Made by a program: the position numbers and the translations under genes. A DNA stretch of 32,131 bases from Nitrosovibrio sp. Nv4. Its GTDB lineage: Bacteria; Pseudomonadota; Gammaproteobacteria; Burkholderiales; SG8-39. Shown here piece by piece: positions 6,966 to 26,469 of the stretch (position 1 is the first letter of the stretch; every line of letters starts with the position of its first letter). Location of the stretch: contig CAMDRF010000034.1 of NCBI GenBank assembly GCA_945906765.1, forward strand, positions 1 to 32,131, written 5' to 3'. Below the pieces are notes generated by a model. The model had not been told where the DNA came from and made no database searches. It saw only the letters and a program-made list of their open reading frames with translations.

Positions 6966-6987
6966 GCGAGGTAGTCATCCATCGCGG
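6954..6987. repeat. 17-bp tandem duplication at the livH/livM junction
   Basis: The 12-mer GTAGTCATCCAT occurs at 6954-6965 and again at 6971-6982, offset by 17 bp, followed by similar GCGAG and CGCGG ends. The repeat covers the ATG of the downstream livM and the last codons and stop of livH. It looks like a short slippage duplication. Confidence 0.75.

Positions 6988-8536: not shown

Positions 8537-8540
<4 letters not shown>
7824..8540 (-). CDS. livF: LivF-type ABC transporter ATPase
   Basis: A 238-residue cytoplasmic ATPase. Walker A is GPNGAGKT (37-44), the signature is LSGGEQQ (136-142), Walker B is LLLMDEP (about 156-162), and FLVEQNAH carries the switch histidine region. ENRLVFPNMTVLDNL and the short length without a C-terminal extension are typical of LivF. 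Its ATG overlaps the livG stop by 4 nt and its own end overlaps the next livH by 4 nt, so it sits in the middle of a translationally coupled chain. Confidence 0.93.
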
Positions 8541-9275
<735 letters not shown>

Positions 9276-9289
<14 letters not shown>

Positions 9290-10181
9290 GCTTGCCTCCA
9301 AAGACCCGTCTGATCCACCGCAGCGTGGGAGCGTCGAGAAAGCCCTTGGGCCGCAGGTTCATCGCCAGTACGATCAGCGCCCCGAACAGCAGGTTGCGCC
9401 AGTCGCCCAGGAAGCGCAGGCCTTCGACCAGGAAACCCTGCACGAAGATCGCCGCCACGACCGTGCCGAACACGCTGCCCAGCCCGCCAAGGATCGGATA
9501 GGCGAGGGCGAAGGTGGCGAGCAGGATGCCGAAACTCGCATGCTCGATATGCGTGGTGTAGTGCGCGTAGATGCCGCCGCCCAGGCCGGCGATGGCGCCG
9601 CCGATAGTCATCGCGCTCACCTTCACCGCGGTGAGGTTGATTCCGACCGACTGCGCCGCCAGTTCGTCTTCGCCGACGGCGCGCAACACGGCGCCATAGC
9701 GCGAACGGTCGAGCCACCAAAGGATCGCCATCACCAGCACCACGAAGATCCAGATGAACAGCATCACCTGCATCGTGGTCCAGCCGTTCTCCGGGAAGTA
9801 ACGGATCTGGCGGAATCCTTCACCACCCAGCGGCCCCAGCTTGACGCCGCCCCTGGCCACCTGGTAGTCGAAATTGAAGAAGAACAGACGCACCGCTTCG
9901 CCGAACGCCAGCGTGGCGATCACCAGCATCAGGCCTTTTACGCGCAGCGCGGGAAAGCCGACCGCGCAGGCCACCGCCGCGCCGAGCAGCGAACTGGCGG
10001 CGAGCGCCGGGAGGATCGCCCAGCCGGCAAGTACCGTGAGCATCCCGGCGGCGTAGGCGCCGACCGCGAAAAACCCCGCCTGCGCCATGCTCACCTGCCC
10101 GGTCAGCAGCACGATATAGGCTGACAGGCCGAGCAGCGTATGCACGCCGATGATCTGCGCCAGGCCGAAATAGAAGTCCAT
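9276..10181 (-). CDS. livM: LivM-type ABC permease (first copy in the operon)
   Basis: A 301-residue HAAT permease. The opening LGLSAYIVLLTGQVSMAQAGFFAVGAYAAG and the segments FPALRVKGLMLVIATLAFGEAVRL, GAVLRAVGEDELAAQSVGI and LGGLGSVFGTVVAAIFVQGFL identify LivM. The ATG at 10181 directly abuts the stop of the upstream livH (10182). The protein is clearly diverged from the other LivM of the same operon, so the pair is an old duplication or separate acquisition and not a recent copy. The C terminus ends in a basic tail RRVFGGKRGAA. Confidence 0.92.
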
Positions 10182-11060
10182 CTAGTCGCGGCCTTCCTTG
10201 GGAGCGAACAGGCCGCCGGGGCGGAACACCAGGAACACGAACAGCAGCAGCATGACGTACAGGTCGCGCTCGGTCACGCCGCGGTACTGCTGCAGCACGC
10301 TTTCGAAGCCGCCCACCAGCAGTCCGGCGACGATCGCGCCGGGAATGCTGCCCAGGCCGCCGATCACGGTGACGATCAGGCCCTTGATCGTGAGCGGCGT
10401 CGTCAGGAGCGGGGAGAGCGTGCCGACCGATGCGCCGATCATGGCGCCGGCAATCCCGCCCAGCAATCCGGTGATGACGAAGGTCATCGCGTTCACCTGT
10501 CCGACGCGAATGCCGCACAGTTGCGCGGCCACCGCCTGCTGCGATACCGCGCGTGTGGCAAGGCCGAGCCGCGTCCTGTAGAGCAGCGCGAGCAGTCCGG
10601 CCATGCACAAGATGCTCACCACGAACACCATCAGCAGGTCGCCGCGCAGCGTGAATTCTCCGGCACGCAGCATCACGTCGTCGAACAGCGCCGGGTAGTT
10701 GAGCGGCATGCCGTCGGTCTGGTGCACGATGACCTCGTCGACCAGCAGCAACATGCCCACTGTAGCCATCAGCGTGGCGAGCGGGTTCGAGATCGGGATG
10801 AAATGGAAGCAGGCGAGGTAGACGATGTAGCCAAGCAGGCCGCCGGCGAGGAAGGCGCAGAAGAACACCGCCAGCGGCGGGGCGCCCGCAAATACTTTGA
10901 GGACCAGCAGGCCGCAATAGGCGCCGCCGACCGAGGCCGCGGCGTAAGATAAGTTCAGCTTGTGCATCACGCCGAACACCAGCGTGAAGCCGATCCCGAT
11001 CAGCGCATAGGTCGCGCCGAACAGCACGCCGTCGGAGAGCGATTGAATGAAATCCAGCAT
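10182..11060 (-). CDS. livH: LivH-type ABC permease (first copy in the operon)
   Basis: A 292-residue HAAT permease. The opening MLDFIQSLSDGVLFGATYALIGIGFTL, the loop RTRLGLATRAVSQQAVAAQLCGI and the segment GLIVTVIGGLGSIPGAIVAGLLVGGFE are LivH hallmarks. The ATG at 11060 gives the standard N terminus, yet no ribosome site precedes it at normal spacing: the start codon follows immediately on the six T residues of a hairpin terminator. Expression may therefore depend on how that hairpin folds, or on initiation by another route. Confidence 0.92.
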   Translation of the reverse strand: MLDFIQSLSDGVLFGATYALIGIGFTLVFGVMHKLNLSYAAASVGGAYCGLLVLKVFAGAPPLAVFFCAFLAGGLLGYIVYLACFHFIPISNPLATLMATVGMLLLVDEVIVHQTDGMPLNYPALFDDVMLRAGEFTLRGDLLMVFVVSILCMAGLLALLYRTRLGLATRAVSQQAVAAQLCGIRVGQVNAMTFVITGLLGGIAGAMIGASVGTLSPLLTTPLTIKGLIVTVIGGLGSIPGAIVAGLLVGGFESVLQQYRGVTERDLYVMLLLFVFLVFRPGGLFAPKEGRD

Positions 11061-12298: not shown

Positions 12299-12349
12299 GG
12301 GGTCTCCTCCTTCAGGTAGATTCGTTCAGTGTAATTGGGAGGAGGAGCA

Positions 12350-13993
12350 ATGGCAAAGACAAATAGACGAAATGTTGCGGCGCGCAAGAAAGACCTGTGG
12401 GCGGGTCTGAAGCCCGGCTCGGCCAATCGCACCACGTTGTCGCCACTTTCGTTTCTGCCGCGGGCAGCGGAAATTTACCCGGACCGCATCGCCGTGATCC
12501 ACGGCGCGCAACGCATTACCTATGCGCAGTTCTACCAACGCGCGCGGCGCCTCGCCTCCGCGCTCGCGAAACGCGGCGTCGGGAAGGGCGATGTGGTCGC
12601 GGCGATGCTGCCCAACGTGCCGGCGATGCTCGACGCGCACTACGGCGTGCCGATGCTCGGCGCGGTGCTAAATGCCATCAATACGCGCCTCGATGCGGAC
12701 ACCGTGGCCTACATTCTCGAGCACGGCGAGGCCAAGGCGTTCCTCACGGATCGCGTATTCGCCGCAGTGGTCGGTCCGGCCTTGAAGAAATTGAAAAGGA
12801 AAATCCTGGTCATCGATATCGATGATCCTCTTTACACCGGACCCGGCGAACGGTTGGGCAGTATTGAATATGAGAAATTCATAGCTGGTGGAAGCCCGGA
12901 TTTTTCATGGAAATTACCCCAAAACGAATACGATCCAATTGCGTTGAACTACACCTCCGGCACCACCGGGCGGCCCAAGGGCGTGGTCTACCATCACCGC
13001 GGCACTTTCCTCGAGTCGATGGGCAACATCACCGCCTGGGCGATGCCGGCGCAGCCGGTCTACCTCTGGACACTGCCGATGTTCCATTGCAACGGCTGGT
13101 GTTACCCCTGGTCCGTGGTGGCGATGTGCGGCACGCACGTCTGCCTGCGCGCGGTGGACCCGGCGTTGATCTTCCCGATGATCGTCGAGCACGGCGTTAC
13201 CCACATGTGCGGCGCGCCGACGGTGCTCAGCATGCTGACCGCCGCGCCGGAAGAGCAGCGGCGCAAGTTCGCCCGGCCGGTGCACATCATGACCGGCGGG
13301 TCGCCGCCGCCGGCCAAGGTGATCGAGGCGATGGAGGAACTCGGCTTTCAGGTGCTGCACATCTATGGCATGACGGAACTTCAGGGACCCTCGACCTTTT
13401 GTGCCCCGCAGGAGAACTGGCAGGACAAATACACCGAGATGGCGCGGCAGGGCGTCCGCTATCAAGTGGTCGAGGGCCATATCGTCGGTGATCCGAAGTC
13501 CTGCAAGCCAGTAAGGAAGGACGGCCGGACCATGGGCGAAATCCTGATCCAGGCCAATACCGTCATGCTCGGCTATCTCAAGGATCCGAAAGCGACCGCG
13601 GAGGCTTTCCATGGCGGCTGGATGCATACCGACGACCTCGCGGTCTGGCATCCGACCAGCTATATCGAGATCAAGGACCGCAAGAAGGACATCATCATCT
13701 CCGGCGGCGAGAACATTTCTTCGGTGGAAGTGGAGATCGCGCTCTACAAGCATCCGGCGACGCAGCTCGCCGCGGTGGTGGCCAGGCCCCACGAAAAATG
13801 GGGCGAAACGCCGTGCGCGTTCGTGCAACTGAAGCCTGGGGCCAATGCCACGGAAGAAGAGTTCATCGTGTGGTGCAGGGAAAACCTGGCCAGATTCAAG
13901 GTGCCGAAGAAAATCGTCTTCGGCGCACTGCCCACCACGGCGACCGGCAAGATCCAGAAGTTCGTGTTGCGGGGAAAAGCCCGGACCCTCTGA
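12350..13993 (+). CDS. Acyl-CoA synthetase (AMP-forming)
   Basis: A 547-residue member of the adenylate-forming enzyme family, which activates a carboxylic acid to acyl-AMP and then acyl-CoA. Motifs are the P-loop YTSGTTGRPKG (201-211), HCNGWCYPW, YGMTEL, GWMHTDDLA, DRKKDIIISGGENIS (hinge region) and the C-terminal TGKIQKF with the catalytic Lys. The overall pattern resembles the medium-chain/DmdB (methylmercaptopropionyl-CoA ligase)-like group; the true acid is unknown. ATG 12350 is preceded by GGGAGGAGGAGC, a very strong ribosome site, which decides against the TTG at 12335. It is divergent from the solute-binding gene with 51 bp between starts. The phzF-like gene follows with no gap. Confidence 0.93.
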   Translation: MAKTNRRNVAARKKDLWAGLKPGSANRTTLSPLSFLPRAAEIYPDRIAVIHGAQRITYAQFYQRARRLASALAKRGVGKGDVVAAMLPNVPAMLDAHYGVPMLGAVLNAINTRLDADTVAYILEHGEAKAFLTDRVFAAVVGPALKKLKRKILVIDIDDPLYTGPGERLGSIEYEKFIAGGSPDFSWKLPQNEYDPIALNYTSGTTGRPKGVVYHHRGTFLESMGNITAWAMPAQPVYLWTLPMFHCNGWCYPWSVVAMCGTHVCLRAVDPALIFPMIVEHGVTHMCGAPTVLSMLTAAPEEQRRKFARPVHIMTGGSPPPAKVIEAMEELGFQVLHIYGMTELQGPSTFCAPQENWQDKYTEMARQGVRYQVVEGHIVGDPKSCKPVRKDGRTMGEILIQANTVMLGYLKDPKATAEAFHGGWMHTDDLAVWHPTSYIEIKDRKKDIIISGGENISSVEVEIALYKHPATQLAAVVARPHEKWGETPCAFVQLKPGANATEEEFIVWCRENLARFKVPKKIVFGALPTTATGKIQKFVLRGKARTL

Positions 13994-14857
13994 ATGAAAT
14001 CGGTGCGCTTCAAACAGGTGGATGTGTTCACTCGGGTGCCCTTTCGCGGCAATCCGGTGGCGGTGATCCTGGAAGGAGATGGCTTGGCCACGGCGGACAT
14101 GCAGCGCATCGCCGCCTGGACGAATCTCTCCGAGACCACGTTCGTCCTGCAGCCCAGTTCCTCCGATGCCGACTACCGGCTGCGGATCTTCACGCCGCGC
14201 TCGGAGCTGCCCTTCGCCGGACACCCGACCATCGGCAGCGCGCACGCGGTACTGGAAGCGGGGATCGTGAAACCGAAGTCGGGCAAGCTGCGGCAGGAGT
14301 GCGGCGTGGGCATCCTCGAGCTGCAACTGGATGGCGAGACGCTATGGCTGGAGTCGCCGCCGGCGACGGATACGCCGTTGGCGAAATTCGATCTCGAGGA
14401 TCTGGAAAAATCTCTCAAGTCGAAGGTCCAGGGCACGCCATGCATCATCAATGTCGGACCGCGTTGGCTGGTCGCTAAATTGAGCGATGCCAACGCCGTC
14501 GCGGCGCTGGACCCTGACATGCAAATCCTTTGCAGCATGAGCAACCGGCTTTCGATCGGCGGGGTCACGGTGTATAGCGATTCCGGCGACGGCGAGTCGG
14601 CCATCCACGTGCGATCTTTCGCGCCGGCGCACGGCATTGCCGAGGATCCGGTGTGCGGCAGCGGCAATATCAGCGTCGCAGCGTACCTGATGAAGACCGG
14701 GCAGGCCGCGCGATTGGGGAGCCGCTATACGGCGCGCCAGGGAATGCAACTGGGACGCGACGGGCGCGTTTCGGTCCGCATCGAAGGCGGGAAGATCTTT
14801 CTTGGCGGCAGCGCGGTGACCTGCATCGAGGGCTCGCTGCGCCTGCCGGCGGGTTAG
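13994..14857 (+). CDS. PhzF-family isomerase
   Basis: A 287-residue protein of the PhzF/diaminopimelate-epimerase fold. Seen are RFKQVDVFTRVPFRGNPVAVI at the N terminus, the NLSETTFV motif with catalytic-type Glu47, the anion-binding AGHPTIGSAHAV and the second-domain EDPVCGSGNISVAAYL. PhzF itself isomerises trans-2,3-dihydro-3-hydroxyanthranilate, but most family members have no known substrate. No other phenazine gene is present here. The ATG starts one base after the TGA of the acyl-CoA synthetase, so the two are co-translated. Confidence 0.9.
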   Translation: MKSVRFKQVDVFTRVPFRGNPVAVILEGDGLATADMQRIAAWTNLSETTFVLQPSSSDADYRLRIFTPRSELPFAGHPTIGSAHAVLEAGIVKPKSGKLRQECGVGILELQLDGETLWLESPPATDTPLAKFDLEDLEKSLKSKVQGTPCIINVGPRWLVAKLSDANAVAALDPDMQILCSMSNRLSIGGVTVYSDSGDGESAIHVRSFAPAHGIAEDPVCGSGNISVAAYLMKTGQAARLGSRYTARQGMQLGRDGRVSVRIEGGKIFLGGSAVTCIEGSLRLPAG

Positions 14858-14866
14858 GTCGCGGCA

Positions 14867-15283
14867 ATGGACCTGATCGACCTGGAGGTGATCGGCTGGC
14901 TGTTCTCCGTCGTATCGGGGATCGCGCTCGCGCTCGGCTTTCTGATTATTGTGCTGAATCACAGCCGCGATGAAACCAGGGCCGTGGCGCGCAATCGAGT
15001 GCTCGAAGACATCGTGCTTTCTCTCATCTGGGCGCTGGGCCTCGCCGGTGGGGCCGGCGTGTTGCTCGGCCAGGGTTGGAGCAGGCTGGCGCTCGAATTC
15101 TTCTGCTGGACCCTGATGGTGCTGCTGCTGATGTCGTGCTGGTCGTGGCTGCGGGCAACGCCACCGCCGCGACACCTGCGCGCGGTCCAGCTTGCGCTGT
15201 TCGTCATCCCGGTGATCGCGATCTGCATGGCCACGATCCTGACGCTGCGTGGCGAAACCACGCTGCGCGTCCTATCAGGTTAG
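14867..15283 (+). CDS. Small four-helix membrane protein of unknown function
   Basis: A 138-residue protein with four predicted transmembrane helices (about residues 8-30, 48-68, 73-92 and 106-126) and a short basic loop (HSRDETRAVARNR). I do not recognise a family. It begins 9 nt behind the phzF-like gene and should be the third gene of that operon. Its TAG stop shares bases with the TAA of the convergent DUF5615 gene (TTAG at 15280-15283). Confidence 0.7.
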   Translation: MDLIDLEVIGWLFSVVSGIALALGFLIIVLNHSRDETRAVARNRVLEDIVLSLIWALGLAGGAGVLLGQGWSRLALEFFCWTLMVLLLMSCWSWLRATPPPRHLRAVQLALFVIPVIAICMATILTLRGETTLRVLSG

Positions 15284-15600
15284 CCGCCGATTCGGACCAA
15301 TGTCCTGGGTACGTGTCTTTCGAGTTGCGACGTCAGCGCGGGAACCAACGGAACCAGGTCCACCAAAGCCGTACTTCGAGCAACCAGCACGAATACCGCG
15401 AGCGGCAAGCTATCGAGATTTTGCTGGAACTGCAGGTTCTGGTCGGCGGTAACAAACGCCTGAAAGTCCGTCGAGGCGAGACGCAATAGCGCCCCGTTCT
15501 TCACACCGGACCAACCCATACGCTGAACGGAAGTCACCTCATGGCCCTGCAACAGACGGCTCAGCCGCCACGGCAGAGATTCGTCAAGCAGGATGCGCAC
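15280..15600 (-). CDS. DUF5615 PIN-like toxin
   Basis: A 106-residue protein starting VRILLDESLPWRLSRLLQGH, the usual opening of DUF5615 (Mut7-C/PIN-like) proteins. The later segment AFVTADQNLQFQQNL carries the second acidic cluster. The GTG at 15600 gives this standard start; GTG 15618 or TTG 15624 would add a few residues. It overlaps the end of the DUF433 gene by 17 nt. The DUF433-DUF5615 order is a recurrent toxin-antitoxin-like pair, the DUF5615 member being the presumed RNase. Toxicity here is inferred from family and layout only. Confidence 0.82.
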   Translation of the reverse strand: MRILLDESLPWRLSRLLQGHEVTSVQRMGWSGVKNGALLRLASTDFQAFVTADQNLQFQQNLDSLPLAVFVLVARSTALVDLVPLVPALTSQLERHVPRTLVRIGG

Positions 15601-15802
15601 GGGCTTCAGCAGCCTCACGCGCAAGTTCCAGCGCTGCCAGGGCTTGCTCGCGGGTAACCGACGGGTAGTCTTCGAGGAACTGCTCCAGGTCTTCTCCCGC
15701 CTCCAGCGTATCGAAGAGGTTCTTCAATGGAACCCTCGTGCCCACAAAGACCGGCACGCCCCCTTGAATCTCGGGGTCACGATGAATGACCATTTGCGCC
15801 AT
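15584..15802 (-). CDS. DUF433 antitoxin-like protein
   Basis: A 72-residue protein with the DUF433 core: IHRDPEIQGGVPVFVGTRVPLKNLFDTL, then LEQFLEDYPSVTREQALAAL. This is a small winged-helix-like domain found beside DUF5615 toxins. ATG 15802 has GGAGG six bases upstream. The alternative ATG at 15793 would drop three residues. As the first gene of the pair it probably neutralises the toxin and may repress their shared promoter. Confidence 0.86.
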   Translation of the reverse strand: MAQMVIHRDPEIQGGVPVFVGTRVPLKNLFDTLEAGEDLEQFLEDYPSVTREQALAALELAREAAEARAHPA

Positions 15803-15850
15803 GACAAGTCCTCCGAGCGAAGTAAAACGAAGGAAATTCTATCCCAACTG

Positions 15851-15994
15851 ATGCGCACCTTTGCAGGGCCGTTGATTTCTGGTTTTTCTACCATCCCACG
15901 CATCAGGCGCGTGAGCTGGTGGTCGGACCGGCACCTGCTCGCGGCGGGAGTGATCCTGCTCCCCGTCGCCGTCGGCATCGTGTTTCTTGCCTGA
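15851..15994 (+). CDS. Doubtful small membrane ORF
   Basis: A 47-codon ORF with one C-terminal hydrophobic helix (HLLAAGVILLPVAVGIVFLA) and a basic region before it. I see no good ribosome site and no recognised family. It lies in the 277-bp gap between the DUF433 gene and the C45 hydrolase, where nothing else is evident. It may be a real single-pass peptide or chance. Confidence 0.25.
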   Translation: MRTFAGPLISGFSTIPRIRRVSWWSDRHLLAAGVILLPVAVGIVFLA

Positions 15995-16079
15995 GCCTGG
16001 GTACGCGTGAAGTTGACCGAACTCGCGATCACCGGCAAGCGCGTCATCGCCAAGTTCGGCAAGGGCGTACTATCCGGGC

Positions 16080-17174
16080 ATGAGCATGTTCCCGGTAGTC
16101 GAGGTTTCAGGCGGCGCGTTCGAGCGCGGCCGCATCCACGGCGAACGGGCGCGCGGCCGCGTGGAGCGTTCGCTGGCAAACTATGCCAGCCTTTTTTCGT
16201 TCAACGGCATGGCGTGGGAGGAAGCACAACGGCGCAGCGCGGGGTACCGCGACCTGATCGGCGGGTTCGACGCCGCGCTGCTCGATGAAATGGAAGGCAT
16301 CGCGCGCGGCGCCGGTCGGCCGTTCAGTGAAATCCTTGCCTTGAATGCGCGTACCGAGGTCCTGCCGCCATCGTTTCTCACCGGAGCGGACGCCGGCGAA
16401 TGCACGGCGATCGCCGTTGCCCCGTCGGCGAGTTCCACCGGCGGAACCCTGCTGGCACAGAATTGGGATTGGGTCGGCTCGCAGCGCGAGGCCATGATTG
16501 TCCTGCGCGTTCGTGAAAGTGGCGATGCGGGCTGCCTCACGCTGACGGAAGCCGGGATGCTGGCCAAGATCGGATTCAATTCCCTCGGCCTGGGCGTGTG
16601 CCTCAATATCCTGCGCTCGGTGTTTGACGGAGGACATGCTGGCATTCCGGTGCACGTGCTGTTGCGCGGATTGCTCAAGCGCTCCAGCGTGCGCGATGCC
16701 ATCGCGTTCTGCTCGACGCTTTCGTTCGGGGGTTCCTCGAACATCCTGCTGGCCGATCGCGGCGGAGAGTGCGCCAGCCTGGAGTTCTCACCCGAAGGCA
16801 TGCGCGTGGTGCGCGGGGAGGGCGGCACGCTTTGCCATACGAACCATTTCCTCCATCCCGAGGCCGCTGGCTGGCAGGCCCGGCATGTGCCGAACCTTTC
16901 GACTATTCCCAGGCTTGATCGCGCACGACAGCTTGCGGCGTCGCGCGCGAAGCACGGCGTCGAGGATGTGAAGCGCTTGCTGCGCGATGAATCCGCGGGC
17001 TTGCTGTCCATCTGCCGAAAGCCAGATGCTTCGCTGCCGCCGGAGGCGCAAATAGAGTCCGTCGCGTCGGTGATCATGGAACTCGGGCGCGGCGTCATGC
17101 ATATTGCGCCGGATGTGCCGTCGCGCACCGAGTACCAGCCTGTAGCGCTGGCGGGTGAACCGGCGCTCGCCTAG
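16080..17174 (+). CDS. C45-family autoproteolytic acyltransferase/hydrolase
   Basis: A 364-residue Ntn-hydrolase of the acyl-CoA:6-aminopenicillanate acyltransferase (peptidase C45) type. These precursors cut themselves before a Cys that becomes the N-terminal nucleophile. The expected Cys is Cys108 in AGECTAIAV, placed like Cys103 of the fungal enzyme. Other family segments are FERGRIHGERARG at the N terminus, EMEGIARGAGRPFSEILALNARTE, LLAQNWDW and GLGVCLNIL. There is no signal peptide, so it should act in the cytoplasm, probably on an amide. ATG 16080 was chosen, with 16086 possible. Its TAG stop overlaps the TAG of the convergent livF in CTAG. Confidence 0.85.
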   Translation: MSMFPVVEVSGGAFERGRIHGERARGRVERSLANYASLFSFNGMAWEEAQRRSAGYRDLIGGFDAALLDEMEGIARGAGRPFSEILALNARTEVLPPSFLTGADAGECTAIAVAPSASSTGGTLLAQNWDWVGSQREAMIVLRVRESGDAGCLTLTEAGMLAKIGFNSLGLGVCLNILRSVFDGGHAGIPVHVLLRGLLKRSSVRDAIAFCSTLSFGGSSNILLADRGGECASLEFSPEGMRVVRGEGGTLCHTNHFLHPEAAGWQARHVPNLSTIPRLDRARQLAASRAKHGVEDVKRLLRDESAGLLSICRKPDASLPPEAQIESVASVIMELGRGVMHIAPDVPSRTEYQPVALAGEPALA

Positions 17175-17872
17175 ACGGAAAGGTAGCGCTGCAGCAGCGA
17201 AGGGTTCGTGTCCAGCTCGGACATCGATCCGGCGTGGCAGAGGCGGCCCTTTTCGATGATGCAGACCCGATCCGCAACCAGGCGCGCGTAGCGCAGGTTC
17301 TGCTCGCATAGCAACACGCTCAGTCCTTCGCGCTTCAGCTCGCGGATCGTGGCGGCAACGCTCTCGACGATCAGGGGTGCGAGGCCTTCGAAGGGCTCAT
17401 CAAGCAGGATCGCCGACGGATTGCCCATCAGGGTGCGCGCGATGGCGAGCATCTGCTGCTCGCCGCCCGACATGTGGCCGCCGCGCCGCGCCTGCATGCG
17501 GCCGAGGTTGGGGAACAGGTCGAACAGTTTTTCCGGCGTCCAGTGCGGCGCGCCGTCGCGCGGCGGCCGGCGGCCGACCTCGAGGTTCTCGGCGATCGTC
17601 AGGTCGGCAAATATGCGCCGCTCTTCCGGCACGTATCCGAGCCCATGGCGGGCGATCTGGTACGAGGGAAGGTTTTTGATGCTTTTATTTTCAAATCGCA
17701 CTTCTCCAGAAACCGCTTGGAGCAAACCCATCACGGTCTTGAGCGCCGTGGATTTTCCCGCGCCGTTGCGGCCGAGCAGGGCGACGACCTCCCCGGCGCC
17801 CAGCGCCAGCTCGAAGTCGAACAGCACCTGGGCGCGGCCGTAGCCGGCATTCAGCCGCCTAAGTTCAAGCAT
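17171..17872 (-). CDS. livF: LivF-type ABC transporter ATPase (second operon)
   Basis: A 233-residue ATPase. Walker A is GRNGAGKST (34-42), the signature is MSGGEQQML, Walker B is AILLDEPFEGLAP, and VLLCEQNLRYARL holds the switch region, where LivF proteins have Gln-Asn. It is the last gene of the operon and overlaps livG by 8 nt. No terminator follows: its stop overlaps the stop of the convergent C45 gene. Confidence 0.93.
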   Translation of the reverse strand: MLELRRLNAGYGRAQVLFDFELALGAGEVVALLGRNGAGKSTALKTVMGLLQAVSGEVRFENKSIKNLPSYQIARHGLGYVPEERRIFADLTIAENLEVGRRPPRDGAPHWTPEKLFDLFPNLGRMQARRGGHMSGGEQQMLAIARTLMGNPSAILLDEPFEGLAPLIVESVAATIRELKREGLSVLLCEQNLRYARLVADRVCIIEKGRLCHAGSMSELDTNPSLLQRYLSV

Positions 17873-18617
17873 GGGCCGCTTCCTCGCCGAGGTAGACCCG
17901 GCGCACCTGTGCGTCGGCGCGGACCTCGGCAGGCGTGCCCTGCGCGATCAGCTCGCCGTCGGCCAGCACGATCACCCGGTCCGCGTGCCGGAAGACGACA
18001 TCCATGTCGTGCTCGGTAAAGAGCACCGCGATGTTTTCGCGACGCGCGATGTCCGCGACCAGCCGCATCAATTCGCCGCGCTCGGCGGAGGCCATTCCCG
18101 CCGTCGGTTCGTCCATCAGCAGCAGTCGCGGGCGGGCAGCCAGCGCCAGCGCGAACTCGATGCGCTTCAGGTCGCCATAGGCAAGCTCCGCGCATGGGCG
18201 GTCCGCCTGCGATTCCATGCCGACTTGAGCCAGGAGAGCTCTTGTCTCTTTTCCCGAAGATCCGCGAAAAGAAGTGAACAGCGAACCCAACTTGCGTTCT
18301 CTCGAAAGACGTGCCACTGCCACGTTCTCGCTCGCAGTCATGGAGCCGAACGTGGCCGCGACCTGGAAGGTGCGGCCGAGACCGAGGCGGCAACGTTCCC
18401 GGGGGGGCAGCCCTTGAATTTTCCTGTCCTCGAAATAAATCTCTCCGGCATCGGGCCGGAGTTGCCCGTTGATGAGGTTGAAGCAGGTGGTCTTGCCCGC
18501 CCCGTTCGGGCCGATCATCGCCAGCAGCTCCCCTGCGGCAACGGAGAAATTGACCCGCTCGACAGCGCGCACGCCGCCGAAGGATTTTGAAAGGCCCTTG
18601 ACCGCGAGCATGTTCAT
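17865..18617 (-). CDS. livG: LivG-type ABC transporter ATPase (second operon)
   Basis: A 250-residue ATPase. Walker A is GPNGAGKTT (36-44), the signature is the LivG-like LAYGDLKRIEFA, Walker B is LLLMDEPTAGMA and the switch histidine is in FTEHDMDVVF. The C terminus RRVYLGEEAAHA is typical. The ATG at 18617 overlaps the fused permease gene by 4 nt. Confidence 0.93.
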   Translation of the reverse strand: MNMLAVKGLSKSFGGVRAVERVNFSVAAGELLAMIGPNGAGKTTCFNLINGQLRPDAGEIYFEDRKIQGLPPRERCRLGLGRTFQVAATFGSMTASENVAVARLSRERKLGSLFTSFRGSSGKETRALLAQVGMESQADRPCAELAYGDLKRIEFALALAARPRLLLMDEPTAGMASAERGELMRLVADIARRENIAVLFTEHDMDVVFRHADRVIVLADGELIAQGTPAEVRADAQVRRVYLGEEAAHA

Positions 18618-20428
18618 TGTCTCGCCTGCAGCAAAGAACCCACGCCACGCGGCAACACCAGCACCAATGCAAGAATGACGATGCCGGTTGCCGCGCGCCA
18701 GTAATCAACGTTGCGCGCGGCTGCATCCTGCAGCCAGGTGAAAAGTGCCGCGCCCCAGACCGGGCCGCTCAGGGTCTGGATCCCGCCCAGCATCACCATC
18801 ACCAGGCCATCGACCGAGCGCTGGATGCCGAGCGCTTCGGGCGAGATCGAGCCCTTGGAAAATGCATAGAGAGCGCCCGCGACGCCGGCAGCGAGTCCGG
18901 CAATGGCAAATGCTTCCCATTGCGTGGCGCGCACATCGATACCAGAGGCTTCCGCGCGCAGCGGCGAATCGCGGGCCGCGCGCAGCGCATGGCCAAAGGG
19001 TGAATAGATCATCCGCCACAGAAAAATAATTCCCGACGCGCAGACCAGTAGTGTCAGGAAGTAGTACGCCGGTTTCGAAGACAGCCAGGGCGCCGGCCAC
19101 ACACCCACCATGCCGTTTGATCCACCGGTCAGCGCGTCCCACTGGAACACCGCCGACCAGGCGATCTGCGCGAAGGCGAGCGTCAGCATCGCCGAATAGA
19201 CGCCCGACAGCCTTACGCAGAACCAGCCGAACACCAGCGCCGCGAACCCCGCGGCGAACGGAGCCAACGCCAGCGCGAGTTCCATGGGAAATTTCTCCCG
19301 CAGGACAAGCATTCCCGCCGCGTACGCGCCCAAACCGAAATACGCCGCATGGCCGAAGGAGTACATCCCGCCCGGCCCCATGATGAAGTGCAGGCTGGCG
19401 GCGAACAGCGCGAAGATCAGCATGTCGGTGAGGAGAACCAGCGTGTAACCGCCGGAGACGACCGGCAGCAGCGCCAGCGCAGCGGCAACGATGGCGAGCG
19501 TCCAGCGCAAGCGGAGCGATGGCCGGGCGAACGGCGGTTCTGCAGTGCCGGGACGAGCGAGTACCGGCATCCGGCCGAGCAGCCCCCAGGGCCGGACCAC
19601 GAGAACCGCGGCCATGATCACGAACTCGATTACCAGTGTGGCCTGGGAGTAACCCAGGCCGATGCAGAACGCCTTGGCCTCGGCGATCAGCAGCGCTGCC
19701 AGAAACGCGCCCGGGATCGAACCGAGACCGCCGATCACCACGACCACGAACGCATCCGATATCACCGACAGGTCGATATTGAGGCTGGCCGGCTCGCGCG
19801 GGATCTGCAGCGCGCCGCCTAGGCCCGCGAGCAGGGCGCCCAGGGCAAACACACCGGTAAACAGCCAGCGCTGGTTGACGCCGAGCGCCCCGGCCATCTC
19901 CCGATCTTCGGTGGCGGCCCGGACAAGGATCCCCCATCTTGTTTTCTTCAATACGAGATACAAAAAACCCAATACAACAGGTCCGAGGATGATGAGCAGC
20001 AGGTCGTACTGCGGGAAGGCGCCGCCGGCGATCTCCACCGCGCCGGTGAAACCGGGCGCCCGCGGGCCGAGCATGTCTTCGGGGCCCCAGGCCCAGAGCG
20101 CGAAGTCCTTGATCAGCAGCAGCAGCGCGAAGGTGGCGAGCAGCTGCAGCAGCTCGGGCGCCTTGTAGATCCTTCGCAGGACGGATATTTCAGCCAGAGC
20201 GCCGATCACTCCCACGGCCACCGCCGCCAGCGGCACTGCGGCCCAGAATCCGACCCGTTCGGCAAGCCAGACCGCCAGATACATGCCCAGCATGTAGAGC
20301 GAGCCGTGGGCGAAATTGACGACCCGGGTGACCCCGAAGATGAGGGACAGCCCGGCGGCCACCATGAAGAGCGAGGAGGCGCCCGCCAGTCCATTAAGGA
20401 ATTGGATTAGAACTGACGAAGAACTCAT
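18614..20428 (-). CDS. Fused LivH-LivM ABC permease
   Basis: A 604-residue protein in which both membrane subunits of a HAAT transporter are joined. Residues 1 to about 290 are LivH-like (FLNGLAGASSLFMVAAGLSLIFGVTRVVNFAHGSLYMLG; GGLGSIPGAFLAALLIAEAKA). After a short Pro/Arg-rich linker (about 290-308), the rest is LivM-like (GPGGMYSFGHAAYFGLGAYAAG; GHALRAARDSPLRAEASGI; GGIQTLSGPVWGAALF). About 17-20 hydrophobic segments are expected. The fusion fixes the 1:1 ratio of the two halves. It lies 8 nt behind the binding-protein gene and overlaps livG by 4 nt. Confidence 0.93.
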   Translation of the reverse strand: MSSSSVLIQFLNGLAGASSLFMVAAGLSLIFGVTRVVNFAHGSLYMLGMYLAVWLAERVGFWAAVPLAAVAVGVIGALAEISVLRRIYKAPELLQLLATFALLLLIKDFALWAWGPEDMLGPRAPGFTGAVEIAGGAFPQYDLLLIILGPVVLGFLYLVLKKTRWGILVRAATEDREMAGALGVNQRWLFTGVFALGALLAGLGGALQIPREPASLNIDLSVISDAFVVVVIGGLGSIPGAFLAALLIAEAKAFCIGLGYSQATLVIEFVIMAAVLVVRPWGLLGRMPVLARPGTAEPPFARPSLRLRWTLAIVAAALALLPVVSGGYTLVLLTDMLIFALFAASLHFIMGPGGMYSFGHAAYFGLGAYAAGMLVLREKFPMELALALAPFAAGFAALVFGWFCVRLSGVYSAMLTLAFAQIAWSAVFQWDALTGGSNGMVGVWPAPWLSSKPAYYFLTLLVCASGIIFLWRMIYSPFGHALRAARDSPLRAEASGIDVRATQWEAFAIAGLAAGVAGALYAFSKGSISPEALGIQRSVDGLVMVMLGGIQTLSGPVWGAALFTWLQDAAARNVDYWRAATGIVILALVLVLPRGVGSLLQARQ

Positions 20429-20436
20429 TGATTACT

Positions 20437-21618
20437 CTAATCCTTCCTGAGTACCCTCACTTCTTCAAACGAAGGCAGGAAGTTGGCTCCGTCGGCGAAG
20501 CGCCAGTTCACCATGACGCCCTTGCCGCCCTTTCTGGCGAGCTGGCCGACGTACGCCCCCATGGTCGACTGGTGGTCGAGGGCACGGTAGACGATCGGGC
20601 CGAACGGGGTATCCATTTCCAGGCCCTTGAGGGCGGCGATGAGCTTTTCGGTGTCGGTGCCGCCCGCCTTGCGCAGGGCATTGGCCGCGGAATACATCGC
20701 CGTGTAGCCCACCACCGAGCCCAGGCGCGGGTAGTCGTTCCAGCGCTTGCGGTAGGCGTCGAGGAATTTCTGGTGCGCCGGCGTCTTGATCTCGTTCCAC
20801 GGATAGCCGGTGACCCACCAGCCCTCGGGCGTTTCATCCTTGAGCGGATCGAGGTACTCGGGTTCGCCGCCGAGGAGGTTGAACACTACGGTATTCTTGA
20901 AAAGGCCGCGCAGATTGCCTTCGCGCACGAATTTCTGCAGGTCGGTGGCGAAGAGCGATGAGAAGATCGCCTCGGGCTTGGCGTCGATCAGCGCCTGCAC
21001 CACCGCGCCGGCGTCGATCTTGCCCAGCGGCGGTGCCTGTTCGCCGACAAACTGCACGCCCGGTTGTGCCTGGGTCATCAGCTTCTTGAACGACGCGGTG
21101 GCGGACTGGCCGTATTCGTAGTTCGGGTAGACGATTGCCCAGCGGACTTTCTTCAGCTTGACCGCTTCCGGGATCAGCATCGCGGTCTGCATGTAGGTCG
21201 AGGCGCGCAGACGGAAGGTATAGCGGTTGCCGTTCTCCCAGACGATCTTGTCAGTGAGCGGCTCGGCGGCGATGAACGCAATCTTGCGCTGCGCGGCGAG
21301 GTTGGATACCGCGAGGCCGACGTTGGAGGCGAAGGTGCCGGTGAGCAGCGCCACGTTCTCGCGCGAGATCAGCTCCTCGGCAACGCGCACCGCGTCGCCC
21401 GGGTTGCCGCCGTCATCGCGCGACACCACCTCGATCTTGCGGCCGTTGATGCCGCCGGCGCGGTTGATTTCCTCCACCGCCAGCTCCCAGCCCTTCTTGT
21501 AGGGTTCGAGGAAGGCGGGGAAGACCTTGTAGCTGTTCAACTCGCCGATCTTGATGGTCTGGGCAGAAACGGTACCTGCCGCAATGAACAGCAGCAACGA
21601 CAGCGCAATCTTGGACAT
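20437..21618 (-). CDS. Liv-type periplasmic solute-binding protein (second operon)
   Basis: A 393-residue Peripla_BP_6 protein. The signal peptide (KIALSLLLFIAAGTVSA, cleavage before QTIK) is followed by IKIGELNSYKVFPAFLEPYKKGWELAVEEINRAGGINGRKIEVV, typical of this class. GNPGDAVRVAEELISRENVALLTGTFASNVGLAVSNLA and YPNYEYGQSATASFKKL follow. The ligand is unknown; related proteins bind amino acids, amides or aromatic acids. Its ATG overlaps the stop of the upstream 65-codon gene by one base (TGATG), so translation of the two is coupled. Confidence 0.92.
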   Translation of the reverse strand: MSKIALSLLLFIAAGTVSAQTIKIGELNSYKVFPAFLEPYKKGWELAVEEINRAGGINGRKIEVVSRDDGGNPGDAVRVAEELISRENVALLTGTFASNVGLAVSNLAAQRKIAFIAAEPLTDKIVWENGNRYTFRLRASTYMQTAMLIPEAVKLKKVRWAIVYPNYEYGQSATASFKKLMTQAQPGVQFVGEQAPPLGKIDAGAVVQALIDAKPEAIFSSLFATDLQKFVREGNLRGLFKNTVVFNLLGGEPEYLDPLKDETPEGWWVTGYPWNEIKTPAHQKFLDAYRKRWNDYPRLGSVVGYTAMYSAANALRKAGGTDTEKLIAALKGLEMDTPFGPIVYRALDHQSTMGAYVGQLARKGGKGVMVNWRFADGANFLPSFEEVRVLRKD

Positions 21619-21838: not shown

Positions 21839-21862
21839 TATAAAAATTAATTAACAATTATA
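21839..21862. promoter_or_regulatory. AT-rich palindrome, candidate operator
   Basis: The 24-bp stretch has the symmetric form TATAA-N3-TTAATTAA-N3-TTATA, with 9 of 12 positions matching between arms. It covers the -10 hexamer and the predicted transcription start of the RHH-led operon. The surrounding window is GC-rich, so this AT-rich symmetry stands out. Confidence 0.5.
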
Positions 21863-21883
21863 CTTCCATTCCGGATCTGTCAA
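21857..21883 (-). promoter_or_regulatory. Promoter with perfect -35 and -10 hexamers (second transport operon)
   Basis: On the minus strand TTGACA (21883-21878) and TATAAT (21862-21857) are both perfect but only 15 bp apart, shorter than the optimal 17. Short spacing often marks promoters that need an activator or are easily controlled. The first gene starts at 21815. Confidence 0.6.
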
Positions 21884-21936
21884 TGGCCGAGAACATTCGT
21901 CCATCCTGCGCTCGTCCACTTGTCGAGTTCGGTTCT

Positions 21937-22134
21937 TCAATCGATCTTGATATTCAATTCCTTCACCAGCTTGCCGTACTTCTCGTAAGCGTCGCGGTAG
22001 AGCTTCGCGAATTGCTCGGGCGAGCCGCCGGGCGCAAAGGCGACGACGACGCGCACCGGCTTGGTGGGCCAGGCTTGCGCCAGGGCGGCGTTTGCGGCCA
22101 AGGCGAGTACGAGCGGCAGAATGTGCTTGAACAT
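21937..22134 (-). pseudogene. Remnant of a Bug/TctC-type receptor gene (internal deletion)
   Basis: A 65-codon open frame that joins the two ends of a ~320-residue tripartite tricarboxylate receptor. The first part has the signal peptide (ILPLVLALAANAALAQ) and the N-terminal AWPTKPVRVVVAFAPGGS. It passes directly into the C-terminal ending PEQFAKLYRDAYEKYGKLVKELNIKID. About 250 residues between them are missing, in frame. The ribosome site (GAGGAGCAACC before ATG) is intact. It cannot bind ligand as a receptor; it may be translated and exported, but is most likely decaying. Confidence 0.72.
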
Positions 22135-22286
22135 GGTTGCTCCTCAGTGTTGTCGCGAGAGCACGCGCTCGGCGAGCGCGCCCGCGGTCATAATTTCGAT
22201 GTGACCGCGCGTGCGTCAGCACTTTACGCACGACGGCGGTGCGGTCAATGGCGGCGAGCCAGCTTGCTTCGAGTTCGGCCGGCATG
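22135..22286. other. 152-bp region without a recognised gene
   Basis: Between the receptor remnant and the large flavoprotein I find only a 15-codon minus-strand ORF (22191-22144, beginning MTAGALAERVLSRQ), ending five bases before the ribosome site of the remnant. It faintly resembles the start of aconitase-type dehydratase subunits, but it is too short to call. The stretch may be debris from the same deletion. Confidence 0.4.
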
Positions 22287-25200
22287 CTAGATGAAGTCTC
22301 TCTGCCGGCGCAGTTCCGGCATGCAATGGCGCAGCCAGCCCGCGCTCAGCTTCTCGGCCAGGGAATTTTGCTTCAGGCGCTCGTGCAGGCCCTTGAAATC
22401 CACGCTGTCGAGCGGCTGGTCCTGGTTGAAGCAGGAGAATACGTAGCTGGTCTCTCCGGTCGCCGGATCGCGCTGCGGCTGCAGGCACTGCGCGCAGATC
22501 TCCTTCATCATGCATTGCATCGGCGAGTTGATGGAGCCGATGGCAAAGTGGGTGGGCTTCAGGTGTGGCTTGAGCACGTCGTGGCGCGCTTTGGCAACGC
22601 CAGCCATCATGCGGTCCGAGCCGATCGCGATCAGGCGATCGCAATCGTCGAGCCGGATCGAAGGCGCGCTCAGGCGTCCTTCGGCGTAGGCATCCATCGC
22701 CTGGACGATGTTGCCGACGAAGCTGCGGTCCTGCGGACGTCCGGGCGTGAAGCCGGGTTCCTCGTCGCAGCACCAGACCACCGCATCTGCCGCGTTTTCG
22801 ATATCGACGATCTTGTACCGGTCAATGACCTTTTTATAGCCCGCGAAGTAGAGCACCCTCGAGCCTGCGGCGCGGAACGCAGCGCCTATCGAGAACAGCA
22901 CCGCGTTGCCCAGACCGCCGCCGCACAACACCACGGTCTCGCCAGCGACGATCTCTGTCGGCGTGCCCGTCGGACCCATCAGGATCACGGGCTCGCCGGG
23001 TTTGAGCATGGCGCAAAGATCGCTCGAGCCGCCCATCTCCAGCGCGATGATCGACACCAGCCCCTTGGCCCGGTCCACCCAGGCACCCGTCATGGCGAGG
23101 CCTTCCATCTGCATGCGCGTGCCGTCGATCACCGGCGCCAGAGTCTCGAAGTTCTGCAGACGGTAGAACTGTCCCGGCTGGAATTTCTTCGCCGCCAGCG
23201 GCGCGCGGATGATGATTTCGACGATCGTCGGCGTGAGCCGTTCGACCTGATGAACCGTGGCGTTGAGTTGATTGGATAGTTCGCTGAAAAACTTTTCCCG
23301 AGACGTCGAAAAAACGGCAGCTCTCGAATTCAAGACTTTCGAAACAATCGGGTAGCCCTGTTTCGCGCTTCCCATGGCTTTCACCACGTTGCCGAAGTAG
23401 GAAGGGTGCACGTCGCCGAAATAGCTGACGAAGCGCCCGTCCGGTTGCCTTGATAGCAGCACGTCGGCAGATGCGGGCTTCGACGTCGAGTACTGCGGCT
23501 TGAGCGGATTGCCGTCCTCGTCGCAGGCGGCGAAGTATTTTGCCTCGAGACTGAAGTGTTTTGCATCCTCGCGTGCGAGGACGGTATTGGGTTGCGTGCC
23601 GGCGGCAACGAATACGCTGTGCGCGGGCAGCCAGTGCTCGGTGGTTGCGCCCTTCAGGCGAATTCCCTTCACCGCGCCGAAGTTGTCCACGTCCACGGCA
23701 ACCGGTGTCAGGCCTTCGGCGAACCAGATGCCTTCCTCGAGTGCCTTTTCGACTTCCTCATGGTTCAGGGTGTAGGAGGGGCTATCCACCAGCCGCCGGC
23801 GGTAGGCGATGGTCACACCGCCCCAGTGCCGCAGCAGTTCGGTGTGTTTTTCTTTTTCTGTGGATCTCAATGTTCTCGCGTGTGCGAGAAATTCTTCTGC
23901 AACCTCCCGTTCCTGGTCGTCCCAGTTCGCGCGCACCGCGTTCTCGCCAATCTCTTTTGCCAGTGCTTCATACCGGTCGAGGAACTTTCTCACCTGCACC
24001 ACGTAGTAGGCGAGGGATTCCGTGGCTGTATCGATCGCCGTCAGTCCGCCGCCGATGACCACCACCGGCAGCCGCAATTGCATGTTGGCGATGGAGTCTT
24101 CCTTTGCGGCGCCGGTGAGCTGCAATGCCATGAGGAAGTCGGAGGCTGCGCGCACGCCCCGGGCAAGGCCGTTCGGAATATCGAGCACCGTGGGTTTGCC
24201 GGCACCGACACACAGGGCGACATGGTCGAAACCCAGCGTCATCGCGTCCTCGAGGGTCAGCGTGCCGCCAAAGCGCACACCGCCGTGCAACGCGAACTGG
24301 CCCCGGCGTTCAAGCAGCAGTCGGATGATTTTGAGGAAATTCTTGTCCCAGCGAACTGTGATGCCGTACTCCGCGACACCGCCGAAACCGGCCATGACGC
24401 GCTCGCCGAGGTTTTCGTACAGGTTTTGGACGTCCTTCACCGGTTCGAACGGAGCTTGCAATGGTTCCAGCTTCAAACCATCGATGCCGACTACCGCGTG
24501 GCCATCATTCATCAGATGATGGGCGAGCGTAAACCCGGCAGGTCCGAGCCCGACCACCAGGACCTTGCGTCCCGTATCCGGGAGCGGTAGCGGGCGCTGC
24601 AGGTTGAGCGGATTCCAGCGCGTAAGCAGCGAATAGATCTCGAAGCCCCAGGGCAGTTCCAGTACATCTTTGAGAGTGCGCGTCTCAGCCTGCGGAATGT
24701 CCACCGGCGCCTGCTTCTGGTAGATGCAGGCCTTCATGCAATCGTTGCAGATGCGGTGGCCGGTGGCCGCGACCATCGGGTTGTCCACGCAGATCACCGC
24801 GAGTGCCGCGATCGGCTCGCCGCGCGCCTTCAGCAAGTGGAACTCGGAGATTTTTTCCTCAAGCGGGCAGCCGGCAAGCGGTACGCCGAATTGGTTTTTT
24901 TTGAAACCGGTGGCGGGGGTTTTCTCCTTCAGGCCCTTGGAGCAGGAGTCCTTGCCCTGCTCATGGCACCAGATGCAGTAGCTGGCCTGGTCGAGCGCGC
25001 CGGTGAGATCCGTGCCGTGATCGGTAAGCGCGAAGCCGTCACGCTGGCGCAGGTGCTCGAGGCTGTGCTTCGGGAAGCCCTGCGACGTATCCGTATGCAC
25101 CGGCACCAGGCGCATGAAATCCAGCTTGAGCGGCGTCTTGAACAGCACGCCGGCGCGGTGTTTTGCTTTGCCGTCCGCTGTCGTCGTTGCCCAGGCCGCG

Positions 25201-25646
25201 TAGCGTGCCGCCGCTTCAAGCTTGCCGGGGTTCGCGGTCTCGTCCTTTTGCCATTCAGTTACGTCTTTCGCAAATTGCAATTCCGAAGTAAATGCAAAGG
25301 AAGCGGGATCGAAATCTTTCAAAGCTTCCAAACTTACCTTGTGCAATGCCCGCCGCTGCACGAACAGGCGTTTCACGGAATAGAGCGGGGCCAGTTCATG
25401 GTGGCGCGCCGCGAGTGCCTGCGCCTCGCTTTCGATCCCGAACAGGCGCGCGATAAAGTCCTCGAGGTGCGGTGCGAGCGCAATGAGCAATTCGGATTCC
25501 GTCTTCCCTGAAGGCGGGCGGCGTCTTGCCTCAAGAATCTGTTGCTGAAGAACAGGATCAAGAAACGACAGAAAGGCGTCATCGAGGCGCAGCAGGCCGT
25601 CGCGCTCGTAGAGATCGCGGAAAGCAAGACCGAAACGGAGGTTCAT
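22287..25646 (-). CDS. Fused NfnB/GltD-like and NfnA/PyrK-like flavoprotein oxidoreductase
   Basis: A 1119-residue cytoplasmic protein. Residues 1-220 are a helical region I cannot assign. Residues 220-310 hold Cys clusters (C224, C227, C235, C260, C286, C300, C303, C307) suited to Fe-S binding. Residues 361-790 form a GltD/NfnB-like module with an FAD-site [10 protein letters not shown] (363-372) and an NAD(P)-site [14 protein letters not shown] (528-541). Residues 795-1119 are PyrK/NfnA-like: the flavin segment FQPGQFYRL, the nucleotide segment [12 protein letters not shown] and a C-terminal C1045-x5-C1051-x2-C1054-x17-C1072 for a [2Fe-2S] cluster. NfnAB is an electron-bifurcating NADH/ferredoxin/NADP enzyme of two separate chains; here both are one chain. 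ATG 25646 was chosen because the longer frame is shadow of the divergent SDR gene. Bifurcation is inferred, not shown. Confidence 0.82.
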
Positions 25647-25707: not shown

Positions 25708-26469
25708 ATGCAGATAAAGAATAGCGTGTTCCTCGTCACGGGCGGCGCGTCGGGCCTCGGCGCGGCAACCGCGCAAATGGCGGCAGCCAACGGCGCCAAG
25801 GTCGTGATCGCGGATCTCCAGGCAGAAGCCGGCGAGGCGCTCGCCAAGGAAATCGGCGGGAAATACTGCAGGTGCGACGTTACCTCCGAAGCCGACGGCA
25901 AGGCTGCGGTCGAAGCCGCGGTCCAGGGATATGGCGGGCTGCATGTGTTGGTGAACTGCGCGGGCATCGGTATCGCCGAGCGCATCATCGGCAAGGAAGC
26001 CCCGCACGACCTCGCGCGCTTCACGAAAGTCATCAGCATCAACCTGATCGGCACCTTCAACATGATCCGCCTCGCGGCGGATGCGATGGCCAAGGCGGGC
26101 CCGAACGCGGCCGGCGAGCGCGGCGTGATCATCAACACCGCATCGGTGGCAGCTTACGACGGTCAGATCGGCCAGGCCGCCTACTCGGCGTCCAAGGGCG
26201 GGGTGGTCGGCATGACGCTGCCAATAGCGCGCGACCTATCGCGCAGCGGCATTCGCGTGGTCACCATCGCACCGGGACTGTTTCTCACGCCAATGCTGCT
26301 TGGCCTGCCGAAGGAAGCGCAGGATTCGCTCGGCAAGCAGGTGCCGTTTCCCTCGCGCCTGGGCAAGCCGGAGGAATACGCCCAGCTGGCGAGGCAGATC
26401 GTCGAGAACGAGATGCTGAACGGCGAGACCATCCGCCTCGATGGCGCGATCCGGATGGCGCCGAAGTAA
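25708..26469 (+). CDS. SDR dehydrogenase, 3-hydroxyacyl-CoA dehydrogenase type II-like
   Basis: A 253-residue short-chain dehydrogenase. The NAD site is TGGASGLG (11-18), D57V follows the pattern of the adenine pocket, NCAG is at 83-86, and the catalytic set is Ser146, Tyr159 and Lys163 (YSASK). The features [41 protein letters not shown] and the ending [15 protein letters not shown] match the HSD10/type II 3-hydroxyacyl-CoA dehydrogenase group. The role would be NAD-dependent oxidation of 3-hydroxyacyl-CoA in beta-oxidation or branched-chain breakdown. ATG 25708 has GAGGGAG at good spacing. It is divergent from the large flavoprotein, 61 bp apart. Its stop abuts the stop of the convergent gene. 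Confidence 0.9.

Follow-up and report, generated by a model that had tools for sequence, protein, structure and literature searches.

A fused NfnB-NfnA-like flavoprotein of Nitrosovibrio sp. Nv4 as a candidate NADPH:ferredoxin oxidoreductase

What reaction might be served by a protein that carries both halves of an NfnAB-type enzyme in one chain? The question is raised by a gene of 1119 codons in a 32,131-nucleotide stretch of DNA from Nitrosovibrio sp. Nv4 (assembly GCA_945906765.1, contig CAMDRF010000034.1, positions 1 to 32,131 of the forward strand), here called the window. The open reading frame is intact, its ATG start at 25646 is consistent with the N-terminal ends of relatives, and it is the sole match in the genome of the window. 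An earlier note, made from the sequence of the window, had described the product as an uncharacterized, perhaps bifurcating, electron-transfer enzyme with a GltD/NfnB-like FAD-NAD(P) module and a PyrK/NfnA-like FAD-[2Fe-2S] module. The reading favored here, which we regard as moderately probable, is that the fusion acts as an NADPH-dependent oxidoreductase of ferredoxin, a low-potential carrier, and stands in for Fpr or CysJ.

Domain architecture and conserved ligands

The best curated match was NCBIfam NF005128 (PRK06567), which covered residues 1 to 920 at 777.9 bits, below its cut-off of 1072; every PRK06567 match in the three genome draws described below was also under this cut-off. Other models were far behind, including PRK12778 (120 bits), PRK12779 (84.5 bits; cut-off 1519) and PyrK-like models. 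A Pyr_redox_2 match was detected at residues 361 to 695. In the structure model, built from 59 sequences (mean pLDDT 83.5, pTM 0.88, with low confidence at residues 301 to 304, 308 to 315, 420 to 435 and 1041 to 1050), residues 168 to 774 resembled NfnL (5jfc_L; Z 21.1, root-mean-square deviation 3.1, 435 residues aligned), a likeness also found in the sequence. Residues 794 to 1114 resembled NfnS (5jca_S; Z 32.4, deviation 2.2, 274 aligned). The C-terminal half gave Z 25.6 with PyrK (5ksw_B) and about 18 with ordinary ferredoxin reductases; it is thus nearer to NfnA and PyrK than to the ordinary type, a match to which would have told against the earlier note. Structure comparison places the two modules in the order NfnB then NfnA, and the description of the protein as an electron-transfer enzyme is borne out by sequence, ligand conservation and model.

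Conservation was assessed in an alignment of 86 sequences of at least 900 residues, comprising the window protein, 11 loci of a named set and the 77 loci of a sampled set (both described below) minus three fragments under 900 residues (L227, L232 and L233). The N-terminal region, which the earlier note had left unassigned, indeed has no Pfam match; it is family-wide, with no fewer than 100 of 150 positions occupied in all 86 rows, and lies inside the PRK06567 match. When folded alone, residues 1 to 213 gave a mean pLDDT of 88.1 and were helical from residue 1 to about 165. By three comparisons, this domain had no convincing counterpart in the PDB: E values were 0.19 or worse in a profile search of PDB sequences and 2.5 or worse with Foldseek, and VIA-align on 69 chains gave Z scores of 3.7 or less.

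Twelve putative ligands are invariant in all 86 rows: C224, C227, C235, C260, C300, C303, C307, E321, C1045, C1051, C1054 and C1072. The eight cysteines noticed earlier between residues 224 and 307 are present, seven of them invariant and C286 variable. In a separate alignment of the 80 named loci, from which the contig-end fragment L012 was omitted, the last cysteine was gapped in one of 79 rows. For Thermotoga maritima NfnB, passages of PMC7596348 give C39, C42, C47 and C100 as ligands of the distal cluster, C51, C90, C96 and E117 as those of the proximal cluster, and Y310-R311-R312 as the NADP-phosphate site. By order and residue type, a distal [4Fe-4S] cluster is predicted at C224, C227, C235 and C307 and a proximal one at C260, C300, C303 and E321. 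The counterpart of the NADP-phosphate site is Y615-R616-R617, whose YR pair occurs in 82 of 86 rows. The [2Fe-2S] spacing is C1045-x5-C1051-x2-C1054-x17-C1072, as the earlier note had described it.

The NADH side is less uniform. Where NfnS has RIPLT, the FAD motif of NfnA and PyrK, no row has an arginine (0/86 at residues 847 to 850). The window protein retains the NADH-site motif GGGLG, as do 60 of 86 rows overall: 60 of 66 outside one clade and none of the 20 inside it. The stretch aligned to residues 900 to 1034 measures 135 residues in the window protein, 97 in L150 and 72 in L215 and L236, where the NAD lobe is shortened accordingly. This difference in conservation indicates family-wide constraint on the NADPH side and on every cluster ligand, but not on the NADH side. 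The label "bifurcating-type" is therefore not established by these features.

The fusion shares with NfnAB both halves, the cluster ligands including the glutamate, the NADP motif and the [2Fe-2S] module. It differs in being a single B-A chain with an extra helical N-terminal domain and a helical insert, in its C-x5-C spacing, in lacking the NfnA FAD arginine, and in that the NADH site is not kept in all members. Fused Nfn homologues of the same order were already in print: passages of Liang et al. (2019, PMC6405883) describe an uncharacterized "Pattern C" of Proteobacteria with the A half C-terminal, which appears to correspond to NCBIfam PRK12779. The PRK12779 model is 944 positions long; the present family, whose window member scores low against it, exceeds this length and carries the additional N-terminal domain. 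PRK06567, named "putative bifunctional glutamate synthase subunit beta/2-polyprenylphenol hydroxylase," does cover the N-terminal domain; apart from the subthreshold score, it differs in an NAD lobe that is about 60 positions shorter, as judged from the positions of split matches.

Occurrence of the gene and its neighbors in relatives

The fusion is not peculiar to one betaproteobacterium, as had been supposed. A scan of named genomes returned at least 588 stretches, at least 583 of them encoding a relative (tblastn, E ≤ 1e-3); the 80 loci of the named set were taken from the latter and are mostly from Betaproteobacteria, including Nitrosomonas, Nitrosospira and Gallionella. The nearest relative among the matches listed was encoded by a betaproteobacterial metagenome-assembled genome (86-87% identity), which agrees with the betaproteobacterial source proposed earlier. 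In a first draw, from the window's class, 31 of 168 genomes carried the gene, all at E < 1e-100. A second draw, from another class of the phylum (presumably Alphaproteobacteria), contained 43 carriers among 192 genomes (E ≤ 1e-20), and a phylum-wide draw 12 among 239. Control genomes gave weak matches in 5 of 14 at E ≤ 1e-3 in the first draw and none at 1e-20 in the other two. The sampled set of 77 loci consists of the first-class carriers minus the window's, plus the carriers of the phylum draw and the second class minus G228, G393 (a 4-kb contig), G492 and G506. The gene is kept even in a small genome of 1.0 Mb (G155). Two copies of the fusion (L136 and L137) were found in genome G024.

Of the 80 named loci, 18, all from Nitrosomonadaceae, have sulfate-assimilation genes (siroheme reductase, cysH, cysD and cysN) upstream on the same strand, with cysN at most 431 bases away in 15 of the 18; in L080, such genes lie 6 to 8 kb off on the opposite strand. 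Among the sampled loci, 8 of 77 have siroheme-reductase or sulfate-assimilation genes on the same strand and no more than 0.9 kb upstream. The gaps were measured to the start of the longest open reading frame without counting the stop codon and thus understate some true distances; contig ends truncate some flanks. In L169, a reductase, a siroheme synthase domain, cysH, cysD and cysNC lie upstream, with 6 bases between cysNC and the gene; the gap to cysNC is 13 bases in L214 and 0 in L217. The reductase gene itself is 136 bases upstream in L213, 125 in L216 and 774 in L207; L202 has cysH at 209 and a reductase at 898 bases, and L203 a reductase at 668 bases with a siroheme synthase domain between. 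Farther away are cysNC in L201 (genome G496), at 1.1 kb, and cysN in L164, at 4.0 kb. With one or two such operons per about 2.7 Mb, a rough estimate of the chance expectation is well under one case among 77.

The linked reductases are of two types. Those of L169, L202 and L207 are CysI/Sir-like, over the PRK13504 cut-off; those of L203, L216 and L080 are NirA-like and under every cut-off, and those of L213 and the Nitrosomonadaceae are similar to the reductase of L080. In a quick tree of the 86 rows, the linkage label needs at least seven changes, so linkage seems to have been repeatedly gained or lost. Just 12 rows of this tree are named (the window plus 11 loci, part of them chosen for linkage), 29 of its 83 inner branches are weakly supported, and it brings long branches together. 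The transhydrogenase genes pntA and pntB are found downstream, on the strand of the fusion gene, in 14 of the 80 named loci, all from Nitrosomonadaceae, and also in L149.

A second group of links concerns ferredoxin. In 4 of the 80 named loci (L019, L051, L066 and L078), fdxA immediately precedes the gene on its own strand (-39 to 52 bases); that of L066 was identified by a model, and BLAST (62-69% identity) identified the other three. With regard to the 12 named rows chosen for the tree, the proteins of these four loci form a group with those of the window and L003 (support 99); the window and its nearest relatives have no fdxA at that place. In L133, L138, L150 and L162, a CGFS glutaredoxin gene was found 183 to 788 bases upstream on the same strand and fdxA 853 to 1399 bases upstream on the other strand, with BolA also in L138 and L150. 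The genomes behind these loci (G004, G025, G113 and G155) are four of the six first-class carriers, out of 31, that have no match to the NIR_SIR domain. FdxA was found in 45 of 49 carriers, a count made in carriers only.

Carriers of the fusion seldom have Fpr. Homologues were counted in the two class draws, not the phylum draw, as matches to NF008178 (248 positions) at E ≤ 1e-20, a search confined to the Fpr type of ferredoxin reductase. In the first class, Fpr was found in 3 of 31 carriers and 53 of 137 noncarriers (P = 0.0010), and in the second class in 2 of 43 and 39 of 149 (P = 0.00098); pooled, the counts were 5 of 74 and 92 of 286 (P = 1.6e-6), all by Fisher tests (one-sided for each class) uncorrected for kinship in draws that span 160 and 168 genera. 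The genome of the window (G000) has a 134-residue Fpr reading frame (contig C55, L238:5739-6143) that corresponds to the first 107 of the 248 model positions and lies inside a 22-kb contig, so its truncation could reflect either decay or misassembly. None of the nine cys-linked genomes of the second class (eight and, in addition, G496 with L201) has an Fpr match or a full-length CysJ; G486 has a flavodoxin-like piece.

Candidate functions of the fusion

An NADPH:ferredoxin reductase is the simplest account of these linkage, occurrence and conservation data. Under this proposal, the FAD in the NfnB-like half would accept a hydride from NADPH, and electrons would leave singly through the two predicted [4Fe-4S] clusters to a ferredoxin, for which the FdxA type is the first candidate. 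Siroheme sulfite reductase, Fe-S biogenesis or further ferredoxin-dependent enzymes would then draw on the reduced ferredoxin. A second electron arm may be formed by the NfnA-like half and its [2Fe-2S] cluster, with NAD(H) perhaps still bound in members like that of the window and the site decayed in others. We infer NADPH:ferredoxin reduction from linkage and occurrence, and likewise the redox partner, direction, cofactor content and role of the helical domain. The earlier note had named no partner; the relatives yield FdxA and the siroheme reductases as candidates. Fpr, which contains one FAD and no Fe-S cluster, carries out the reaction proposed for the fusion.

Published work supports a reductase slot in ferredoxin-fed sulfite reduction, which the fusion could fill. 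Passages of PMC13188885 call the sulfite reductase SPO2634 of Ruegeria pomeroyi ferredoxin dependent and report its assay with ferredoxin and the ferredoxin reductase SPO2637, one figure legend differing. For Ferrovum, passages of PMC4725956 predict that sulfite is reduced by a ferredoxin-dependent enzyme, of which three relatives have homologues. DsrL demonstrates that a siroheme sulfite reductase can be served, with NADPH, by an NfnB-like flavoprotein (passages of PMC7596348). In one open library, no paper was found that names a relation of the fusion family to cys genes, fdxA or Fpr, nor one on PRK06567 or on a known CysJ substitute.

Several observations weigh against the proposed function, beginning with the scope of the Fpr search and the kinship left in its statistics. 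No Fpr match lay over the curated cut-off (0 of 168 and 0 of 192 genomes), and five carriers do have a match, namely G000 (the fragment), G121, G138, and G173 and G519, which are of one genus. Linkage within 0.9 kb is the minority state, being absent from 69 of the 77 sampled loci, several of which have flanks cut by contig ends, and among the window reading frames scanned, no cys or fdxA gene adjoins the gene. The NirA-type neighbors of L203 and L216 could have nitrite as substrate. Near full-length CysJ was found in 8 of 31 first-class carriers, in five of them over the cut-off. The genome of the window has only two NIR_SIR matches, the best of which lies in dsrA with dsrB adjoining, and hence no assimilatory sulfite reductase was found there. 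In Pseudomonas aeruginosa, the loss of FprA was bypassed by extra fdx1 and not by fdxA (passages of PMC5302815), so FdxA need not be the usual partner.

A strict replacement of CysJ was rejected as the whole story, given the eight carriers with near full-length CysJ and the six without a NIR_SIR domain. Genome counts of PF01077 as "sulfite reductase" were dropped, since this domain also catches DsrAB and other siroheme enzymes.

An alternative that we consider unlikely is a dedicated partner that feeds assimilatory sulfite reductase directly, like CysJ and without ferredoxin. In L169, L213, L214, L216 and L217, whose genomes have no full-length CysJ, cysNC or a siroheme reductase gene lies 0 to 136 bases away, as would suit such a partner, and DsrL offers an analogue: according to passages of PMC7596348, this NfnB-like NAD(P)H flavoprotein serves the siroheme sulfite reductase DsrAB, and sulfite reduction needs NADPH. 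DsrL itself serves a dissimilatory enzyme. Against direct feeding stand the carriers without any NIR_SIR domain and the links to fdxA and glutaredoxin; two distant types of linked reductase are also easier to reconcile with a shared carrier.

Bifurcation by the fusion is possible, in either of two directions. Quite unlikely, in our estimate, is a reverse bifurcator in aerobes that would oxidize two NADPH, with the NfnA half handing one electron pair to NAD+ while ferredoxin receives the second pair at low potential. The proton-driven transhydrogenase PntAB would then remake NADPH from the NADH, so that reduced ferredoxin is in the end paid for by the proton motive force; lineages without the NAD site would then have fallen back to plain NADPH:ferredoxin reduction. 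The classical NfnAB reaction, in which NADH and reduced ferredoxin together yield NADPH, is rather improbable. Both halves and all cluster ligands are there, and most members outside one clade, including the window protein, keep the NADH motif, but the NfnA FAD arginine is absent from every row, the NAD lobe is about halved in L215 and L236, and the linked genes are likely consumers of reduced ferredoxin. Because GGGLG is absent from a whole clade, NADH-linked bifurcation is not a function shared by the family.

A role as small subunit of glutamate synthase, suggested by the database name and the GltD-like fold, can practically be dismissed: GltB is present in the genome of the window and in 54 of 79 carriers, but no match was found in the other 25 or among the neighbor genes scanned, and the C-terminal half is NfnA-like. 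In passages of PMC5481527, a glutamine-to-glutamate conversion in Neorickettsia was deduced from the name "bifunctional glutamate synthase beta/2-polyprenylphenol hydroxylase." That protein may belong to the fusion family, since PRK12779 bears the same name; if so, the deduction is doubtful because of the carriers in which GltB is missing.

Surroundings of the gene and implications

The features of the gene and its divergent neighbor are collected in Table 1.

Table 1. Coordinates of the fusion gene, its domains and the divergent neighbor in the window
Feature	Residues	Window positions	Strand	Remark
Gene for fused NfnB-NfnA-like flavoprotein	1119 residues	22287..25646	-	Including stop codon
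All-helical N-terminal domain	1-165	25152..25646	-	Present in 86/86 aligned members
NfnB/DPD-type domain for two [4Fe-4S] clusters (predicted)	214-345	24612..25007	-	Correspondence with T. maritima NfnB
NfnB/GltD-like FAD and NADP(H) domains	357-777	23316..24578	-	
Motifs of the FAD and NADP(H) domains	366-371, 532-537, 615-617			GLGPAG, GGGLTA, YRR
Mostly helical insert in NADP(H) domain	548-608	23823..24005	-	
NfnA/PyrK-like flavin, NAD and [2Fe-2S] module	794-1082	22401..23267	-	
[2Fe-2S] ligands C1045, C1051, C1054, C1072 (predicted)	1045-1072	22431..22514	-	C-x5-C spacing
SDR oxidoreductase, divergent neighbor		25708..26466	+	

In the window, the gene stands on its own. The divergent neighbor is an SDR, as the earlier note had stated; the label "acyl-CoA-type" given to it is unproven, since none of the best 25 NCBIfam SDR models listed reached its cut-off. 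An SDR homologue was found in the flanks of only 17 of the 80 named loci, and the enzyme is not thought to be part of the system or to have much bearing on the function of the fusion. Beyond it are genes for a hydrolase, an M50 peptidase, trpS, scpA, scpB and a 23S pseudouridine synthase. On the other side, the minus strand carries (18617 to 21618) a periplasmic binding protein gene and a permease reading frame (18617 to 20428) that unites UrtB- and UrtC-like parts; the reading frames at 6081 to 11060 and 17174 to 18617, for which BLAST found similar reading frames, perhaps belong to the same group. The plus strand at 12335 to 17171 encodes, one after another, an acyl-CoA synthetase (PRK08162), a PhzF-family isomerase and a C45-family acyltransferase/hydrolase. 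A reading frame just downstream of the fusion gene (21851 to 22285) looks spurious, being arginine rich and having no Pfam or NCBIfam match and no hit in the 80 loci. PADLOC gave no match.

Elsewhere in the genome of the window, one stretch (contig C4, L237:4429-12628) holds dsrA and dsrB together with the gene for a PRK12771-type flavoprotein whose position and fold family are DsrL-like. This arrangement suggests a sulfur-oxidizing or sulfite-using organism. In relatives, a dihydroorotate dehydrogenase-like gene lies upstream of the fusion on the same strand in L032 and nine more of the named loci (L001 to L080), and the convergent neighbors in L168 were read by eye as subunits of a 2-oxoacid:ferredoxin oxidoreductase.

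The fusion is a large electron-transfer enzyme, widespread and unstudied, which probably loads ferredoxins with electrons from NADPH, for instance for the reduction of sulfite to sulfide; the glutamate synthase name under which it stands in databases is probably wrong. That some members of a single family have lost the NADH site provides a natural experiment on the interchange of bifurcating and plain ferredoxin reductases. If the fusion is an NADPH:ferredoxin reductase, a role would be given to a gene family that is kept even in small genomes, and the misleading name would be corrected. An electron donor would also be named for sulfite reductase in ammonia-oxidizing Nitrosomonadaceae and in other proteobacteria in which no CysJ or Fpr was found.

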